DNA of 33,586 nucleotides from Magnetococcales bacterium (GTDB lineage: Bacteria; Pseudomonadota; Magnetococcia; Magnetococcales; UBA8363), in contig JADFZF010000013.1 of the NCBI GenBank assembly GCA_015232645.1, forward strand, positions 1 to 33,586, in the 5' to 3' direction. The number at the start of each line of letters is the position of its first letter. Position 1 is the first letter of the stretch. The notes under the pieces are model-generated. The model was not told the origin of the DNA. It saw only the letters and a list, made by a program, of their open reading frames with translations, and ran no database searches. Positions 1 to 32,607 of the stretch are shown piece after piece. Position numbers and translations under genes: made by a program.

Positions 1-60
1 GATACACCAAGAGCAGGAAGGCGACAGGATATCCGCTGTCTATGCGAAATTTAACGCTTA

Positions 61-432
61 TGGGGGATTGCCCCCAGGGTTTTGCTTTTGATTTTGCTTT
101 TCACTCGCCCTTTGACCCGAAGCCAGATTCCCGCGTGATTTTTGCAGGAATCTGGCGCAGGCGCGCGCCCTGGGCGCCCTTTCTTCGCGGTTTGGGCGAA
201 GAAAGGCCAACGCCTTGCCGGTTGTCGGGCTTGACAACCGGCAAGGCGTCTTAAGATCTTTTCGCACAAACCGCGAAAAGATCTTAAGACCAAGGCGCGC
301 GCCTGCGCGGTTTTTCCGCAAAACCACGCGGAAAAACCGCTTCGGGTCAAAGGGCGCGTGAAAAGCAAAATCAAAAGCAAAACCCTGGGGGCAATCCCCC
401 AGACCCCCTTTTTTTTTCAATCATTCCAAACC
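61..432. repeat. Palindromic repeat element, copy 1 (left end truncated)
   Basis: The element is almost entirely nested inverted repeats. The outer arms 61-123 and 339-401 are complementary over 63 bases with one mismatch seen by eye. Inside are hairpins at 122-134/144-156 (one mismatch), 180-188/196-204, 211-226/233-248, 248-265/273-290 and 307-319/328-340, the last three perfect. A further 13-base pair, 157-169/294-306, brackets the central hairpins. The right end continues through a T-tract to a CAATCATTCC-AAACC tail at 418-432 that matches copy 2 (22366-22783). The matching left tail is missing: the sequence before 61 is unrelated. Short ORFs in all frames of this element are side products of its composition. 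No transposase gene is near. It could be a MITE-like element, a structured RNA or a chromosome-organising site. Confidence 0.9.
385..417 (+). terminator. Intrinsic terminator at the right edge of repeat copy 1
   Basis: CTGGGGG at 385-391 and CCCCCAG at 396-402 form a 7-bp stem with a CAAT loop. ACCCCC and nine T residues (409-417) follow. It would stop transcription leaving the element rightward. The same arrangement occurs at both ends of copy 2. Confidence 0.55.
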
Positions 433-510
433 GGGGGAATCTGCATGGCTACCTTGCGGCTATGGCTTCATCTCACTTGTTGCGACAAACCTGAATGGTG
501 AATACGGCGC

Positions 511-601: not shown

Positions 602-1438
602 TCATGATGTTTGAAGGAGTTGCAATAATAGTTTCGGCTGCAGATTGGCCTGGGCTAAGATGGAAATTCCCGCTTGCTGAAGGATGTTGTTGCGGGTCAT
701 TTCGGCGGTTTCCTTGGCAATATTGGCATCCATGATGGCTGACTTGGACGATGTATACGCATCGGATAACGATTGAATCTGGCTGAGAACAGATTGAAAA
801 CGGGTTTGTGCGCCTCCCAGGGTCGCGCGGATGGAGGAAATACTGTCCAATGCACTGTCGACCAACAAAACGGTCGTACTGGCGTGAGTCGTCGTACTGA
901 CCAAGGCCGATTTGCCATTAGCACCGAAGCCGAGCAGTCCCATACTGGCCCCCTGGACTGTAAACTGGACGGTTTCGCCCGGATTGGCTCCGATCTGAAA
1001 CGAAAAGGTTTGCGTAGCCGCCGCCAGAAGGCTGTACCCATTGAACTTGGTGTTTGCAGCCAGACGGGTGATTTCCGATACCATCAGGTTGACTTCCGTT
1101 TGCATCGACACCCGATCGGAGGAGGAGGCGGTGGTGTTTTTCGCGGCGATCGCCAGATCACGAATTCTTTGCAGGGAAGTGACAGTTTCTGACAAGGCGC
1201 TATCGGCCACCTGGGCCAAGGAAACGCCATCATTGACATTTTGCGCCGCCTTCGACAGCCCTCCGATTTTGGACGTCAGGCGTGCCGCCAACGCGATACC
1301 GGCAGGATCATCCCCGGCAGAGTTGACGCGCAAGCCCGACGACAAGCGCAGATAACTTTGTCCCAAAGCCTGGTTGGTTTTGGACAGGTTGCGTTGTACC
1401 GCAAGGGAAATAAGGTTTGAACCAATAGTAAGTGGCAT
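602..1438 (-). CDS. Flagellin (short form lacking D2/D3)
   Basis: This is the structural subunit of the flagellar filament, exported by the flagellar type III system. The 278-residue protein has the conserved N-terminal D0/D1 helices, with LSSGLRVNSAGDDPAGIALA near residues 32-51 and NVNDGVSLAQVADSAL near 68-83. The C-terminal helices include NILQQAGISILAQAN near 251-265. Almost nothing lies between the two conserved halves, so the variable surface domains D2/D3 are absent, as in other short proteobacterial flagellins. The ATG at 1438 is preceded by AGAGGAG eight bases upstream, which fixes the start. A strong terminator follows the stop. The gene stands alone, so it may be one of several flagellin paralogues in the genome. 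The letter suffix of the gene name cannot be assigned. Confidence 0.95.
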   Translation of the reverse strand: MPLTIGSNLISLAVQRNLSKTNQALGQSYLRLSSGLRVNSAGDDPAGIALAARLTSKIGGLSKAAQNVNDGVSLAQVADSALSETVTSLQRIRDLAIAAKNTTASSSDRVSMQTEVNLMVSEITRLAANTKFNGYSLLAAATQTFSFQIGANPGETVQFTVQGASMGLLGFGANGKSALVSTTTHASTTVLLVDSALDSISSIRATLGGAQTRFQSVLSQIQSLSDAYTSSKSAIMDANIAKETAEMTRNNILQQAGISILAQANLQPKLLLQLLQTS

Positions 1439-6010: not shown

Positions 6011-8353
6011 TCAAGTCCGTTTGAGCGCCCTGGAAAACGCGGAGGCCATGGCACTTTCGCCCTGGTCGACCGGCTGATTCTTGAAGGATGGGGATCGCGA
6101 AGGAGAGTCGCGTCCCGAACGGGAAGAGGGGGATATCGGATCACTCAGCCGCATACTGAGGGCGATACGTCGTCGTTTCAGATCGATCTCCATCACCCTG
6201 ACCTTGACGACATCCCCAGCACGCACCACATCATGGGGATCCTTGACGAACCGATCCGCCAGGGCGGAAACATGCACCAAGCCATCCTGATGCACGCCTA
6301 TATCGACAAATGCCCCAAAATTGGTCACATTGCTGACCACTCCCTCCAATACCATGCCAGGTTGCAAATCCTTCATATCCTCCACCCCTTCCCGAAAGGT
6401 GGCGGCACGGAACTGTGGTCTGGGATCGCGTCCCGGTTTTTCCAATTCCTGCAGAATATCCCTGACCGTTGGCTCACCAAAACGGACATCGGTGAACTCC
6501 CCGGTCGCCAGGGTTCGCAATACTTTCTGATTGCCAATCAATTGTGATAACGACAAACCAGTTTTACGTAGAATTCGTTCCACCAACTCGTAGGATTCGG
6601 GGTGCACCGCGGAACCATCCAAAGGGGTATCCCCATTCTGTATACGCAAAAAACCGGCGGCCAATTCAAACGTTTTGACACCAAAACGGGGCACCTTGCA
6701 CAGTGACCGCCGATTGGGAAATGGACCGTTCTTCTCCCGATAGCTGACAATGGTTTCGGCCAAGGTGGCATTGAGACCGGAAACCCTTTGCAATAATGGT
6801 GGTGAGGCGGTGTTGACATCCACACCCACCGCATTCACCGCATCTTCCACCACCCCATCCAGGCTGACGGACAACCGTTTTGGATCGACATCATGCTGGT
6901 ATTGTCCCACCCCAATGGATTTGGGATCGATTTTGACCAGTTCCGCCAGGGGGTCCTGCAGACGTCTGGCAATGGAAACCGCTCCGCGCAAGGAAACGTC
7001 CATATCCGGCAATTCTCTGGCCGCGTATTCCGACGCGGAATAAACCGATGCCCCCGCCTCACTGACCAGGACCCCGACACATTTCAATTCCGGGTGCTCT
7101 TTTTTCAACTCCTGGACCAGACGATCGGTTTCCCGGGATCCGGTGCCATTCCCAATGGCTATCAGACGGACGCCGAATTTTGCTGCCAGAAGGGCCAGCC
7201 CCCGTTTCGCCTCCTGCCATTGGTTTTTCGGCGGGTGCGGATAAAAGGTTGTGACAATCTCGACCTTTCCGGTTTGATCCACCACCGCCACCTTGACCCC
7301 GGTGCGCAACCCCGGATCCAACCCCATAACGCTGACCATCCCCGCGGGTGCCGACAAAAGCAGATCGCGCAAGTTGGCCGAAAACACCCGCACCGCATCC
7401 TCCTGGGCCATCTCCTCCAGACGTTTGGTCAAGTCGGTTACCACATGCGGCTTGATCTTTTTTTGCCAAGCGTGATGCACCACCTCCAACAGCCACGGAT
7501 CCCCGGGACGCCCCTGGTCCCTGATGGAGAAATGCTGACAAATCAGAGATTCACACCAGACCATCTTCTTGTTCGAACCCTTCAGGTCCTGTTCGTGTTC
7601 CAACTCCAGACGCAGAACCCCCGCGCTCTTCCCCCGCAACAAGGCCAGTACCCGATGGGAAGGCAACTTTTTAACCGCTTGATCAAAAGAAAAATAATCA
7701 GAAAATTTTTCCCCTTCCTCCTCTTTCCCTTTCACCAGACGTGACTGCAAAACCCCCTGATCCCACATGGACTCACGAACCCGCCCAACCAGAGCAGCAT
7801 CCTCAGACATGACATCGGCCAGAATGGATTGGGCCCCCTCCAAGGCCGCTGCCGCATCCTTCACCCCCCGCCCCTCATCGACGAACGCTCCCGCCTGCTC
7901 CTCTGGAACCAGGCCAGGATCACGCAAAAGCATCATCGCCAAGGGTTCCAAACCTGCTTCCCGAGCCACAGTCGCCTTGGTACGCCGTTTGGGACGAAAA
8001 GGGAGGTACAAATCCTCAAGCCGGGTCCTGGCCGTCGCCGCCATGATCTCGGCCTCGAGATCGGCTGTCAGCTTGCCCTGCTGACCAATGCTGTTCAGAA
8101 TGGTCGCCCGACGCTCCTCCAGGTCGCGCCATTGTCCCAGACGTTCGTGCAACACGCGTAAATGACCATCGGTCAACCCCCCGGTTAATTCTTTACGATA
8201 GCGGGCAATGAACGGAACCGTGGCCCCCTCGTCCAACAACCGCACGGCTGCAATCACCTGACTTTCTCGAACTCCCAATTCTTCCGCCAAGCGAGCATTG
8301 ATTCGGTTCTCAGGACCGGCATTCATCGGTTGTCCCGCCGCCAATATAGACAT
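6011..8353 (-). CDS. tex: RNA-binding transcription accessory protein Tex
   Basis: Tex is a cytoplasmic nucleic-acid-binding protein linked to transcription and RNA metabolism. The protein is 780 residues from the chosen start, the usual length. It has an N-terminal helical region with FIARYRKELTGGL (residues about 48-60). A YqgF-like RNase H-fold core starts at MGLDPGLRTGVKVAVVD. Helix-hairpin-helix units follow (NTASPPLLQRVSGLNATLA). The C-terminal S1 domain reads GMVLEGVVSNVTNFGAFVDI. A Ser/Arg-rich tail follows the S1 domain. The start at 8353 is chosen because AAAGGAGAACCGAAAC lies just before that ATG. The longer frame begins 17 codons earlier with no ribosome site. It is monocistronic and divergent from the cysteine-cluster gene. 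Confidence 0.96.
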   Translation of the reverse strand: MSILAAGQPMNAGPENRINARLAEELGVRESQVIAAVRLLDEGATVPFIARYRKELTGGLTDGHLRVLHERLGQWRDLEERRATILNSIGQQGKLTADLEAEIMAATARTRLEDLYLPFRPKRRTKATVAREAGLEPLAMMLLRDPGLVPEEQAGAFVDEGRGVKDAAAALEGAQSILADVMSEDAALVGRVRESMWDQGVLQSRLVKGKEEEGEKFSDYFSFDQAVKKLPSHRVLALLRGKSAGVLRLELEHEQDLKGSNKKMVWCESLICQHFSIRDQGRPGDPWLLEVVHHAWQKKIKPHVVTDLTKRLEEMAQEDAVRVFSANLRDLLLSAPAGMVSVMGLDPGLRTGVKVAVVDQTGKVEIVTTFYPHPPKNQWQEAKRGLALLAAKFGVRLIAIGNGTGSRETDRLVQELKKEHPELKCVGVLVSEAGASVYSASEYAARELPDMDVSLRGAVSIARRLQDPLAELVKIDPKSIGVGQYQHDVDPKRLSVSLDGVVEDAVNAVGVDVNTASPPLLQRVSGLNATLAETIVSYREKNGPFPNRRSLCKVPRFGVKTFELAAGFLRIQNGDTPLDGSAVHPESYELVERILRKTGLSLSQLIGNQKVLRTLATGEFTDVRFGEPTVRDILQELEKPGRDPRPQFRAATFREGVEDMKDLQPGMVLEGVVSNVTNFGAFVDIGVHQDGLVHVSALADRFVKDPHDVVRAGDVVKVRVMEIDLKRRRIALSMRLSDPISPSSRSGRDSPSRSPSFKNQPVDQGESAMASAFSRALKRT

Positions 8354-22256: not shown

Positions 22257-22380
22257 CGATGATTTTTTGGAAACTTTCGAAAAAAAATAAAAATAGTTAA
22301 ATTATTGTATTCAATCTGGAAATTGGTTATTGCCAAAATTTATTCATAACTATTCGGATCCTTCCGGTTCGGAGTGATTG

Positions 22381-22413
22381 AAAAAAAAAGGGGGGCTGGG
22401 GGATTGTCCCCAG
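22381..22413 (-). terminator. Outward terminator at the left edge of repeat copy 2
   Basis: CTGGGGG (22396-22402) and TCCCCAG (22407-22413) form a 7-bp stem with one G-T pair. On the minus strand the stem is followed by a C run and nine T residues (22389-22381 read in reverse). It faces out of the element. Confidence 0.5.
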
Positions 22414-22735
22414 GGTTTTGATTTTGCTTTTCACGCGCCCTTTTATCCTATGCCAGATCCCCGCGTGATTTTTGCGGGAATCTGGCATAGGCGCGCGCCT
22501 TGGGCGCCCTTTCTTCGCGGTTTGGGCGAAGAAAGGGCGCCGCCTTGCCGGTTGTCGGGCTTGACCACCGGCAAGGCGTCTGAAGATCTTTTCGCATAAA
22601 CCGCGAAAAGATCTTCAGACCAAGGCGCGCGCCTGCGCGTTTTTCCCGCAAAAACCACGCGGAAAAAACGCTTCGGATAAAGGGGCGCGTGAAAAGCAAA
22701 AACAAAAAAACAAAAACAAAATCGAAGGCAAAACC

Positions 22736-22765
22736 CTGGGGGCAATCCCCCAGACCCCTTTTTTT
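22736..22765 (+). terminator. Outward terminator at the right edge of repeat copy 2
   Basis: CTGGGGG (22736-22742) and CCCCCAG (22747-22753) pair around CAAT, followed by ACCCC and seven T residues (22759-22765). It mirrors the left-edge terminator. Confidence 0.5.
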
Positions 22766-22971
22766 CTTCAATCATCCCGAACCAGGGGGTTCTGAATCGT
22801 TACAATGCCGTCATCCACCACCTGCCGGTCACCGAAAACAGTCGATGAGGAGACAGACCCCTAGGCCCATGGAGAAGGAAAGATACCCAACAAGGCGTTG
22901 GCTTCCCACAGGAAAGGAAACCTGGGATGTTGAATCGACGTGTGCGAGTGATCGGATCGTGAGGAGTACGG

Positions 22972-28342: not shown

Positions 28343-31222
28343 ATGACTACCACCCACGACAAAATCATCATCCGCGGCGCCCGCGAACACAACCTGAAAA
28401 ATGTCGATCTGGAACTTCCCAGAAATGCACTGACGGTGATCACCGGAGTCTCGGGCTCGGGCAAATCCTCCCTGGCGTTCGATACCCTCGCCGCCGAAGG
28501 GCAACGCCGCTACGTCGAATCCCTGTCCGCCTATGCCCGACAATTCCTTTCGCTCCAGGGCAAACCCGACGTCGATGCCATCGACGGCCTGTCCCCATCC
28601 ATCTCCATCGAACAAAAAAGCACCAGCAAAAACCCCCGTTCCACCGTTGGAACGGTGACCGAAATCCACGATTATCTGCGGTTGCTTTTCGCCCGCGTTG
28701 GCAAACCCCACTGCCATGCCTGCGGCAAGGCTATCGATAGCCAAACCGTCAGCCAAATGGTCGATACCCTCATGACCCTGCCGGAAAACTCGCGAATCCT
28801 GGTGATGGCTCCCATCGCCATGGGCCGCAAGGGTGAGTTCAAAAAGGAAATGGCGGCTCTGGTCCGTCATGGCTTCACCCGAGTCGTCATCGACGGTCAA
28901 ACCATGGATGTGGAAGAGGCCACGGATCTCAACAAAAAAGTCAAACACACCATTGCCGCCCTGGTGGACCGCATCGTCATCAAACCCGGCATCGAACATC
29001 GCCTCGCCGATTCTCTCGAAACCACTCTGGCCTTGCCTCAAACCCTGGCACTCAAATCGGTCCCCGGGGGGATCGCCCACATTCAAATCCTCAGCGACCC
29101 GCCCACCGACATGCTGTTCTCCGAACGCCATGCCTGTCCCGACTGTGGCATCTCCTACCCCGAAATCGAACCCCGTCTATTTTCCTTCAACAACCCGTTT
29201 GGTGCCTGTCCCCATTGTACCGGTCTCGGAACCCGGGAGTTCTTCGACCCCGACCTGGTGGTGCCCAATCCCAAGCTGGCCATCGATCAGGGGGCCATCG
29301 CTCCATGGTCCAAACCCACCGCCCACATGGCCCGACAAAGCCTCCTGGCCGTCGCCACCCACTTCGATATCGATATCCACACCCCATGGGAACAATTATC
29401 CCCTGAACACCAGGCCATCATCCTCGACGGCGTCGAAAACGATCCGATCCGTTTTCGCTTTCGCGGTCCGCGGGGCAGCTTTTCCACCACCAAACCCTGG
29501 GAAGGGGTATTGAAGAACCTCGAACGGCGCTATCTGGAAACCGAATCGGACGACATGCGCGAAGAGCTTGCTGCCTATCGTAACGCCTCTCCGTGTCCCG
29601 GATGCCATGGCAAACGACTTCGTGTCGAAGCCCTTTCGGTACGAACCGGCGGTCACAATATCGCCGAATTGTCGGCCCTGCCATTGGACCACGCCTTGAA
29701 CCTCCTGACCTCTCTCCCCCTGACCCAGCGGGAGGCCACCATTGCCCACCGCATACTCAAGGAAATTACCGAACGTCTGCACTTCCTCATCGCCGTCGGC
29801 CTGGACTACCTGACCCTGGATCGGGCGGCCGCCACCCTTTCGGGCGGCGAAAGTCAACGGATCCGCCTAGCCAATCAGATCGGCTCCGGATTGACCGGGG
29901 TGCTCTACATCCTGGATGAACCCAGTATCGGTCTGCATCAACGCGATAATCAACGATTGCTCAATACCTTACTCCGCCTGCGCGATCTGGGGAATACCGT
30001 CGTGGTCGTGGAACACGATGAAGAGGCCATTCGCGCCGCCGACCATGTCATCGACATGGGACCTGGCGCTGGCGAGCACGGCGGATCGGTAGTGGCGCAG
30101 GGATCTCCGGCGGCCATTCTGGCCAATGGCAACTCCCTGACCGGTCGTTACCTCTCGGGGAACCTCACCATTCCCCTCCCCCCCTCCCGCCGCCCGGTCG
30201 ATCCAAAACGGATGCTGGCCCTCAACCTGGTCCACACCCACAACCTTCAAGGCATTTCCGCCCAGATCCCCGTGGCTTTGTTCACCTGTGTCACCGGCGT
30301 CTCCGGTTCAGGCAAGTCGAGTTTGATTCTGGATACCCTCTACCCGGCCTTGCAACAAAAACTGCACGGCACCCAGCTCACCGGGGGCGAATTTGCCTCC
30401 ATCGATGGACTGGAATTTTTCGACAAAGTGATCCACATCGACCAATCCCCCATCGGACGAACCCCCCGTTCCAATCCCGCCACCTATGTTGGTTTGTTCA
30501 CCCCCATCCGCGAGCTGTTTGCCCAGGTCCCCGAGGCCCGCGCCCGCGGCTACAAATCGGGACGCTTCAGTTTCAACGTCAAGGGGGGACGCTGTGAAGC
30601 CTGTACCGGTGAAGGATTGGTGAAAATCGCCATGCATTTCCTCCCCGATATCTTCGTCGAGTGTGACGTCTGCCAAGGCAGCCGTTACAATCGGGAAACC
30701 CTAGAAGTCCTCTTCAAAGGCCATTCCATCACCGGTGTCCTCAACATGACGGTCGAAGAAGCGGTTGCTTTTTTCAAAGCGGTCCCCTCGGTTCAACAAA
30801 AACTGATCACCCTCATGGACGTCGGTTTGTCCTACATCCGCCTGGGGCAGGCGGCAACCACGCTGTCGGGCGGCGAGGCCCAAAGAGTCAAAATCGCCAA
30901 GGAACTGGCCAAACGGGCCACCGGGAAAACCCTATACATCCTCGATGAACCCACCACCGGCCTGCATTTTGACGACATTCGCAAACTTTTGGAAGTCCTG
31001 GATCGCCTGGTGGTGGCGGGAAACACTGTCGTCGTCATCGAGCACAACCTCGATGTCATCAAAACCGCCGACTGGATCATCGACCTGGGGCCGGAAGGGG
31101 GCAGCCGTGGCGGACGGATCGTCATGTCGGGGACCCCTGAGCAGTGTGCCAAAGATCCCGATTCCTGGACCGGTCGTTTCCTCAAACCGGTCCTGGCCGG
31201 CCACCAAACTCCCCTCGACTAA
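28343..31222 (+). CDS. uvrA: Excinuclease ABC subunit A
   Basis: UvrA is the damage-sensing ATPase of nucleotide excision repair and loads UvrB. The 959-residue protein has two ABC modules. The first has Walker [10 protein letters not shown], signature [14 protein letters not shown] and Walker [13 protein letters not shown]. The second has [24 protein letters not shown] and [12 protein letters not shown]. The zinc modules read [10 protein letters not shown] with CPHCTGLG, and CEACTGEG with [27 protein letters not shown] is the UvrB-interacting region. The length is normal and the gene is intact. A diverged copy of its last 240 bases lies 1.3 kb downstream (32257-32503). Confidence 0.98.
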
Positions 31223-31372
31223 GGCCGTCATCAAAGGTGGCATGGTTCGCCTATCCTTTATCCAGCGCGTTGGGGAAAAAATGACCCGCATCCCTCCCAC
31301 CGCTACTGACAAGATCCACACCTCCAACCCAATGGAAACCAAAGGGGAGAACGAATCAGGATGCCCCTTGTC

Positions 31373-32145: not shown

Positions 32146-32259
32146 TCAAGCCGATTTCCCCAAATGGGCTTGGCGCACCTCCGGATTGGCCAACAATTCC
32201 TGACCTTTGCCCTCCAGACGAATGCGGCCGGAACCCAGGACATAACCACGATCAGCCAT
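32146..32259 (-). pseudogene. livF 3' fragment (branched-chain amino acid ABC ATPase)
   Basis: The last 37 codons read [19 protein letters not shown], then ELLANPEVRQAHLG, then a stop at 32146. This is the typical C-terminus of LivF, the second ATPase of the Liv/HAAT branched-chain amino acid importer. All of the ATPase core upstream is missing: at about 32257 the sequence passes directly into the reverse complement of the uvrA 3' end. It is therefore a broken gene end. Confidence 0.8.
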
Positions 32260-32503
32260 TCGCAAACTTTTGGAGGTCCTGGATCGCCTGGTGGTGGCGG
32301 GAAACACTGCCGTCGTCATCGAACACAACCTCAATGTCGTCAAAACCGCCGACTGGATCACCGACCTGGGGCTGGAAGGGGGGTGTCGAGGGGGACGGAT
32401 CGTGATGGTGGGCACTCCCGAACAGGGTGCCGAAGATCCCGATTCCTGGACTGGTCGTCTCCTCAAACCGATCCTGGCCGGCAACCGACCCGTCCCGGGC
32501 TGA
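32257..32503 (+). pseudogene. Duplicated uvrA 3' fragment
   Basis: Sequence from 32257 onward matches uvrA from 30976 to about 31204. The translation, [20 protein letters not shown] through [16 protein letters not shown], aligns with the UvrA C-terminus with about a dozen amino-acid changes in 75. The frame is intact to a TGA at 32501, but there is no start region, ATP site or signature. It is a decayed partial duplicate or the end of a second, lost uvrA. Confidence 0.85.
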
Positions 32504-32607
32504 GGCCACCGGACCCGATCCGATCAATGATTGCGCATGGGGGCTGGGAATGGGGGCCCCCCCTCCCCGTCCCTCCCATCCCATGAACAGATTCGACGCA
32601 CGGAAAT

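Follow-up and report, generated by a model that had tools for sequence, protein, structure and literature searches.

What is the nested-palindrome element that occurs twice in a 33,586-nucleotide stretch (hereafter the window) of a Magnetococcales genome: an RNA, a chromosome site, or a mobile repeat? The initial annotation described it as built almost entirely of inverted repeats and proposed an unrecognised class of structured element, RNA, or chromosome site. Our analysis makes it fairly probable that this is a dispersed non-autonomous mobile element, in which a REPIN-like palindromic core sits in MITE ends, is moved by an IS66-family transposase, and has its arms kept by DNA-level copying. 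The core would consist of a variable spacer, in this case filled by five nested hairpins, flanked by a pair of short GC hairpins that carry T-tracts and are inverted relative to each other, and it would be carried centrally within the MITE ends.

Anatomy and folding of the window copies

The 63-base outer arms with one mismatch described for copy 1 were confirmed exactly (the mismatch is at position 105), and extension of the arms to 82 bases brings the total to seven mismatches. The five internal hairpins are likewise present (hairpins A to E in Table 1), and the arms of copy 1 additionally hold one small hairpin at either end. The proposed extents of 61-432 and 22366-22783 fall within the element, and the true unit is larger in both copies. 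Copy 1 (positions 58-432) had a predicted RNA folding energy of -278.7 kcal/mol, whereas its shuffles averaged -128.7 (z = -25.9), and the minus strand of copy 1 and copy 2 folded with z-scores of -23.2 and -27.9, respectively; in each of the three cases none of 100 shuffles folded as well. The proposal that a single strand forms a branched fold is therefore borne out for copy 1, and it is upheld by the covariation described below. Both strands fold because the whole element is coarsely symmetric, the left hairpins having T-rich loops and the right hairpins being the reverse complement. The open frames of copy 1 (up to 120 aa) are not common to the family, since the aligned core lengths differ by non-multiples of 3 (342, 358, 340, 356, and so on).

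Table 1. Coordinates of the element copies, their parts, and the neighbouring gene in the window.
Feature	Position	Strand	Remarks
Copy 1, nested-palindrome element, left-truncated	61-452	.	Core 61-402; probable decayed transposon end up to 452
Left arm, copy 1	61-142	+	Partner 320-401; 82 nt, 7 mismatches; one mismatch in first 63 nt
Right arm, copy 1	320-401	+	
Left end hairpin, copy 1	61-76	+	TGGGGG-ATTG-CCCCCA, then T-rich run; terminator-like
Right end hairpin, copy 1	385-417	+	CTGGGGG-CAAT-CCCCCAG, then ACCCCC and nine Ts; terminator-like
Hairpin A	122-156	+	10 perfect outer pairs
Hairpin B	178-206	+	11 perfect outer pairs
Hairpin C (centre)	210-249	+	17 perfect outer pairs
Hairpin D	250-288	+	16 perfect outer pairs
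Hairpin E	307-340	+	13 perfect outer pairs
Probable decayed GTAAC-type outer end, copy 1	443-452	-	GCATGGCTAC; end type assigned by eye
Copy 2, complete element	22346-22803	.	ATAAC at 22346 ... GTTAC to 22803
Core, copy 2 (between its end modules)	22391-22757	.	Both end hairpins listed as terminator-like
Flagellin gene	602-1438	-	PF00669, PF00700; copy 1 ~150 bp beyond its stop

The right end hairpin of copy 1 was listed by the terminator scan on the minus strand only, its plus-strand T-run beginning six bases past the stem. The end modules of copy 2 lie 45 and 46 bp inward of its outer ends, and no target duplication is left in its flanks (ATTTATTC and AATGCCGT). Copy 1 has lost its left end at 60/61. 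The 60-bp left flank of copy 1 (window 1-60) recurs on contig C60 (L019/L070) with the same cut in the core, between TTAACGCTTA and TGGGG, and the same junction is found on contig C77 (L023) at an oppositely oriented end module. The recurring cut at the end hairpin is perhaps the work of an insertion element targeting that hairpin; IS110 (PF02371), considered as its source, had no match in the window's own genome.

Distribution, outer ends, and carriers of the core

The two window copies are not a local duplication. The window's own assembly, which comprises 426 contigs and is 74% complete, gave 92 BLAST matches to positions 61-432; by hand count these represent ~41 separate, dispersed places, four of them nearly full length with both window copies included. 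BLAST matches were present in 29 of 61 genomes, of which 28 are among the 48 from the order. Several of these 28 match weakly, their best E exceeding 1e-8, and in at least one the match lies beside simple repeats (L052, G019). The remaining genome, outside the order, also matches weakly (E 4e-4). The end pattern ACCCTGGGGG-N-CCCCCAGACCC occurs in 21 of the 48 genomes of the order, while reversed-pattern controls gave zero matches. Counts of the end module vary from 0 to 295 across the order and from 2 to 295 within one genus, with the maximum in G004. A scan of named genomes returned at least 111 stretches, and the 80 listed are from Magnetococcales MAGs; a viral-contig match (L235) is without the T-tract and looks like chance. 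Many contigs of these draft genomes end at a copy of the element.

In full copies from the sister genome G006, the outer stem continues to GTAAC...GTTAC, and many elements in the window's genus have these outer ends. Most fetched loci were searched for GTAA/TTAC end pairs that match at 12 or more of 16 bases and are separated by 60-1300 bp, which yielded 26 intervals. A perfect 8-bp target duplication flanks eight of these, and none of 182 offset controls reached 7 or more; the other 18 comprise one pair with 6/8 and 17 with 5/8 or fewer. Among the eight intervals with the full duplication, two hold the core (L081 and L085), and others hold a core with shortened middle (L087), a nested degenerate core (L102), half a core (L278), the core ends with another filling between them (L128), or other fillings altogether (L175 and L259). 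L084 and L089, like copy 2, have kept no target duplication. Where measured, the core is central in its carrier within 2 bp (45/46, 48/47, 46/46, 48/48, 48/46, 46/46, and 46/45 bp; seven elements, copy 2 included). The family is mobile and of MITE type, with terminal inverted repeats and target duplication, although neither of the two window copies has retained this combination. Its relatives thus run counter to the initial claim that the element differs in kind from MITEs.

As previously observed, the ORF list reveals no transposase near either window copy, where the family search covered the nearest ORFs; in the genus, however, matches to the IS66 family (PF03050) are found in 8 of 8 genomes. 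The window's own genome contributes one partial match, and an intact IS66 gene was not found in its assembly, which is 74% complete. A 472-aa IS66 transposase (PF03050, E 8e-49) in a sister genome (L237) lies between GTAACTATTCAGCACCCCCC ends with a 22/24 end match and a duplication of 7/8. It is the only intact IS66 gene within a matching GTAAC end pair among the 12 loci fetched, and this locus has no end module. According to the accessible portions of the literature, IS66 elements have 20-30-bp inverted ends starting GTAAGCG and make 8-bp duplications (PMC11946415), the latter also recorded for two Paracoccus IS66 elements (PMC3281130). The ends of our elements start with GTAAC, as in the L237 insertion sequence, and differ from the GTAAGCG start given in that available text. 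From these resemblances we infer that the GTAAC carrier, one carrier in the genus, may be moved in trans by an IS66-family transposase; its ends and 8-bp duplications are read directly from the loci.

Several smaller observations concern the same ends. Two GTAAC-ended elements (L175:5968-6084 and L318:1501-1560) have a different palindrome (GTCATTCCCGCGAAAGCGGGAAT...), which suggests that GTAAC ends pick up palindromes in general. At L248, L256, L265, and L320, GTAAC ends stand directly after GAAAAAAG of another copy's core end, and the A-tract looks like a favoured target of these ends. GTAAC elements of 56-65 bp were considered as the empty form of the carrier, and an 8-bp duplication was found at the own ends of 0 of 6 (best 2/8); around one such element, the nested L320, an outer GTCATGTC pair can be seen.

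The same core adjoins other ends as well. A second end type, TAATTCTAC(C/T)TTGT(C/T)ACATTCAT, was found beside it in the window's own genome and in G002, and two further types, TAGGGCGTGTTGACATTC and CAGGGCAATCGCATTTG, were recognised by eye in the G003/G004, DCbin2, and DCbin4 genomes. A pattern count of 61 two-ended elements gave GTAAC at both ends in nine, type 3 in three, type 2 in one, type 4 in one, a mixed type 3/4 in one, one recognised end in 18, and none in 28. The elements of the last two groups may have been moved by something else or have decayed ends. This typing is rough: one round yielded no type 2, and other ends can be seen by eye in many of the G003/G004 copies scored as "none". 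L305, L306, and L317 have mixed ends by eye. Target duplications were examined for the GTAAC-type ends. In other genera, the core ends mostly adjoin genes without a recognised carrier. The core therefore stands between different repeat ends, with at least two carriers solid and four likely.

These observations raise the tentative possibility that the branched core is a unit of inheritance in its own right, that is, an order-wide module which, by exchange via its palindromic arms, would move from one kind of transposon end to another, unrelated one. The ends concerned would be the IS66-like GTAAC type and, represented by fewer complete pairs, TAGGGCGTGTTGACATTC, TAATTCTAC, and CAGGGCAATCGCATTTG. 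The branched fold of the core would be actively kept by DNA-level arm copying and by removal of copies with alike hairpins. If so, a core common to unrelated transposon ends would be a route for non-autonomous elements to change carriers.

Position beside genes and terminator-like core ends

Genomic position was surveyed with a home-made gene caller in 146 loci (756 kb, 83% coding). Of 158 elements, only 2 extend into a called gene. Where both neighbours were known, elements are depleted in divergent gaps (8 of 92, p 0.0005, compared to 51 of the 195 other gaps) and weakly enriched in convergent gaps (19 of 92, p 0.046, compared to 22 of the 195). Among neighbours no more than 600 bp away, 3' ends lie at a median of 59 bp and 5' ends at a median of 126 bp, and tandem cases are nearer the 3' side in 40 of 65 (p 0.029). 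Every core end consists of a GC hairpin with a T-rich tail, and two scans found 9 and 7 terminator-like sites versus 2.4 and 2.6 in shuffles. Judged by this anatomy and a modest position bias, the core ends of copies located immediately beyond genes may plausibly act as intrinsic terminators in both directions. At L127 (~7390-7445), the frame of the upstream gene appears by eye to end at a TGA supplied by the ATTGAAAA border of a core end.

In three species (L170, L196, and L125), the element persists between the same two genes, which by eye we take to be ilvC-like and psd-like. A loop that reads ATTCAT/ATGAAT in L170 has become ATTCTT/AAGAAT in L196, the change being matched on both arms, whereas the arms of L125 differ at that loop (ATTCGT/ATGAAT), one arm alone having changed. 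At another site, the element is present in G004 (L197) and absent from G007 (L200), with flanks aligning at 80% and 72%. Retention across species together with this presence/absence site shows that both retention and turnover occur.

The terminator-like ends in excess of shuffles, the nearly exclusively intergenic placement with depletion between divergent genes, and the retention across three species, including a loop change mirrored in the opposite arm between L170 and L196, would all suit a domesticated bidirectional terminator or insulator, which the host keeps for ending transcription at the ends of genes and for which the MITE ends are incidental carriers. We regard this explanation as unlikely. 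The strand that is sense to the flanking genes folds no better than the antisense strand and outdoes it in 10 of 24 tandem cases (p 0.39), the five inner hairpins are not needed by terminators, and the L125 loop position has changed on one arm only. Moreover, the available text of a survey of REPs describes the same position bias for these repeats (PMC3733652).

Relation to known repeats and upkeep of the pairing

The initial impression of an unrecognised structured element holds insofar as the whole window contains no match reaching the gathering score of an Rfam family, and the accessible portions of the openly licensed literature on Magnetococcus/Magnetococcales, nested palindromes, related repeats, and IS66 contain no description of the family. 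It does not extend to a new class: the closest architecture is that of REPINs, the GTAAC form as a mobile unit is a MITE, and the element is a variant of these known kinds. With MITEs of the IS66-family type it shares short length, lack of a conserved ORF, GTAA-starting inverted ends, 8-bp duplications, and the presence of IS66 genes in the genus. In contrast to such MITEs, its interior is not recognisable as an internally deleted IS66 (the intact L237 is without the end module), and its nested palindrome core also occurs between other end types and alone. BIMEs and tagged REPs are, in the accessible part of their description, palindromic intergenic repeats located mostly downstream of genes (PMC3733652), as here, but our element has neither the GTAG nor the CGTC tag and its palindromes are nested rather than serial.

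REPINs, as far as the consulted text describes them, have two inverted conserved ends over small palindromes, a variable pairing spacer, compensatory changes, and extragenic location (PMC3116915), all of which recur in our element. The latter differs in its length of up to ~400 nt, the ends of the type REPIN being ~71 bp apart in the same text (PMC3116915), in its five branched hairpins, in lacking a GTAG tag, and in often being nested inside MITE ends. On these likenesses the element might be a REPIN in the strict sense, with a Y1 (RAYT-type) transposase mobilising it as single-stranded DNA and the MITE carriers secondary. Two further findings would agree with such an origin: in G018 the end module is arrayed in tandem, and 7 of the 8 searched genomes contain Y1 genes. 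We nevertheless consider it improbable. The end module was found at 0 of 10 Y1 loci fetched from 7 genomes (13 Y1 matches being listed), and the flanks of these PF01797 loci contain a small number of unrelated hairpins and almost no 16-mers common to other loci. In addition, no Y1 gene was matched in the window's own genome (74% complete), neither a GTAG nor a CGTC tag stands beside the palindrome of the end module AAAACCCTGGGGG-CAAT-CCCCCAGACCCCT, and the surviving duplications are 8 bp, as made by IS66.

A covariation alignment was built from 23 of 28 cores found (L061, L087, L197, L257, and L317 were left out, and two rows have runs of N), and in the predicted structure 96.6% of its 2278 cells pair. 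Both sides have changed in 33 of 101 pairs (22 in shuffles), double-change cells number 192 (64 in shuffles), and further pair types 68 (60 in shuffles, 6 of 500 of which reach 68), the last being the least distinct measure; because the copies share ancestry, these figures and the P values given below for hairpins A and E overstate independence. Sliding the partner by 1-3 columns lowers the pairing to 37-55%. Many pairs switch wholesale, as in columns 169/188, where 12 rows have U-A and 11 have C-G with no intermediates. Wobble cells amount to 31 GU on the aligned strand versus 36 of the mirror AC (99 of 101 pairs), next to 40 other mismatches. This lack of strand preference favours DNA-level upkeep over an RNA gene, with moderate weight since the element is symmetric and readable either way.

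Template switching can create multibase compensatory changes in one event, according to the accessible text of PMC8794818. The hairpins maintained in this way, as portrayed there, resemble ours in the double changes restoring their stems (PMC8794818) but reside in RNA genes, whereas here they belong to a mobile element without strand preference. Considering the many double changes and the absence of strand bias, we suggest that changes in one arm may be copied to the opposite arm at the DNA level by template switching in replication.

Hairpin A and the mirror of hairpin E have like stems in only 2 of 30 copies taken from a hand-made list, compared to 11.1 under random pairing within genome groups (P 0.0002). 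By group, like stems occur in 0 of 13 copies in G006, in 1 of 12 in G003/G004/G007, and in 1 of 5 in the window's own genome, the copies of which on their own display no effect (n = 5, P 0.69). Copies with like hairpins include L004 and L301. A cruder comparison of 18 copies gave P 0.10 for identical stems and 0.032 for similarity, and one of 34 rows including chance matches gave P 0.014 for near-identical stems and no effect on mean distance. The rarity of copies with matching hairpins could mean that the branched form is being maintained, or that copies were lost once they had turned into longer perfect palindromes; the latter appears probable to us, as the merged palindrome may be unstable.

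Strong RNA-like covariation is usually taken as proof of a functional RNA. The extreme fold, the strong covariation, and the constancy of one fold throughout a genus would indeed accord with a structured RNA gene or large riboregulator, an RNA having been among the initial proposals, but with no strand preference, no Rfam match, a dispersed and very variable copy number, interchangeable and partly missing hairpins, and presence or absence at a matching site, we consider this explanation very improbable. The other initial proposal, a chromosome site, which would be a segregation, packaging, or uptake signal, is hardly credible: the many intergenic copies with conserved ends would suit it, but the number of end modules ranges from 0 to 295 across genomes of the order and from 2 to 295 within one genus, and the element is present or absent at a matching site. 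As a mobile palindrome with RNA-like covariation and no strand preference, the family provides a natural test set for the DNA-level origin of compensatory changes and for bacterial tolerance of long palindromes.

Two further structures were noted in passing. In G018 (a single contig of 4,719,581 bp), the shared end hairpin forms tandem arrays with units of ~126-141 bp (L114/L119/L112), and these arrays adjoin two-hairpin structures, the stems of which differ widely between copies yet stay paired. In the window, positions 30976-31226 and 32257-32507 form a direct repeat of 251 bp with 86% identity. The first copy lies at the 3' end of a 959-aa ORF (28343-31222) that is UvrA-like by eye, and the second looks like a duplicated fragment of this ORF.
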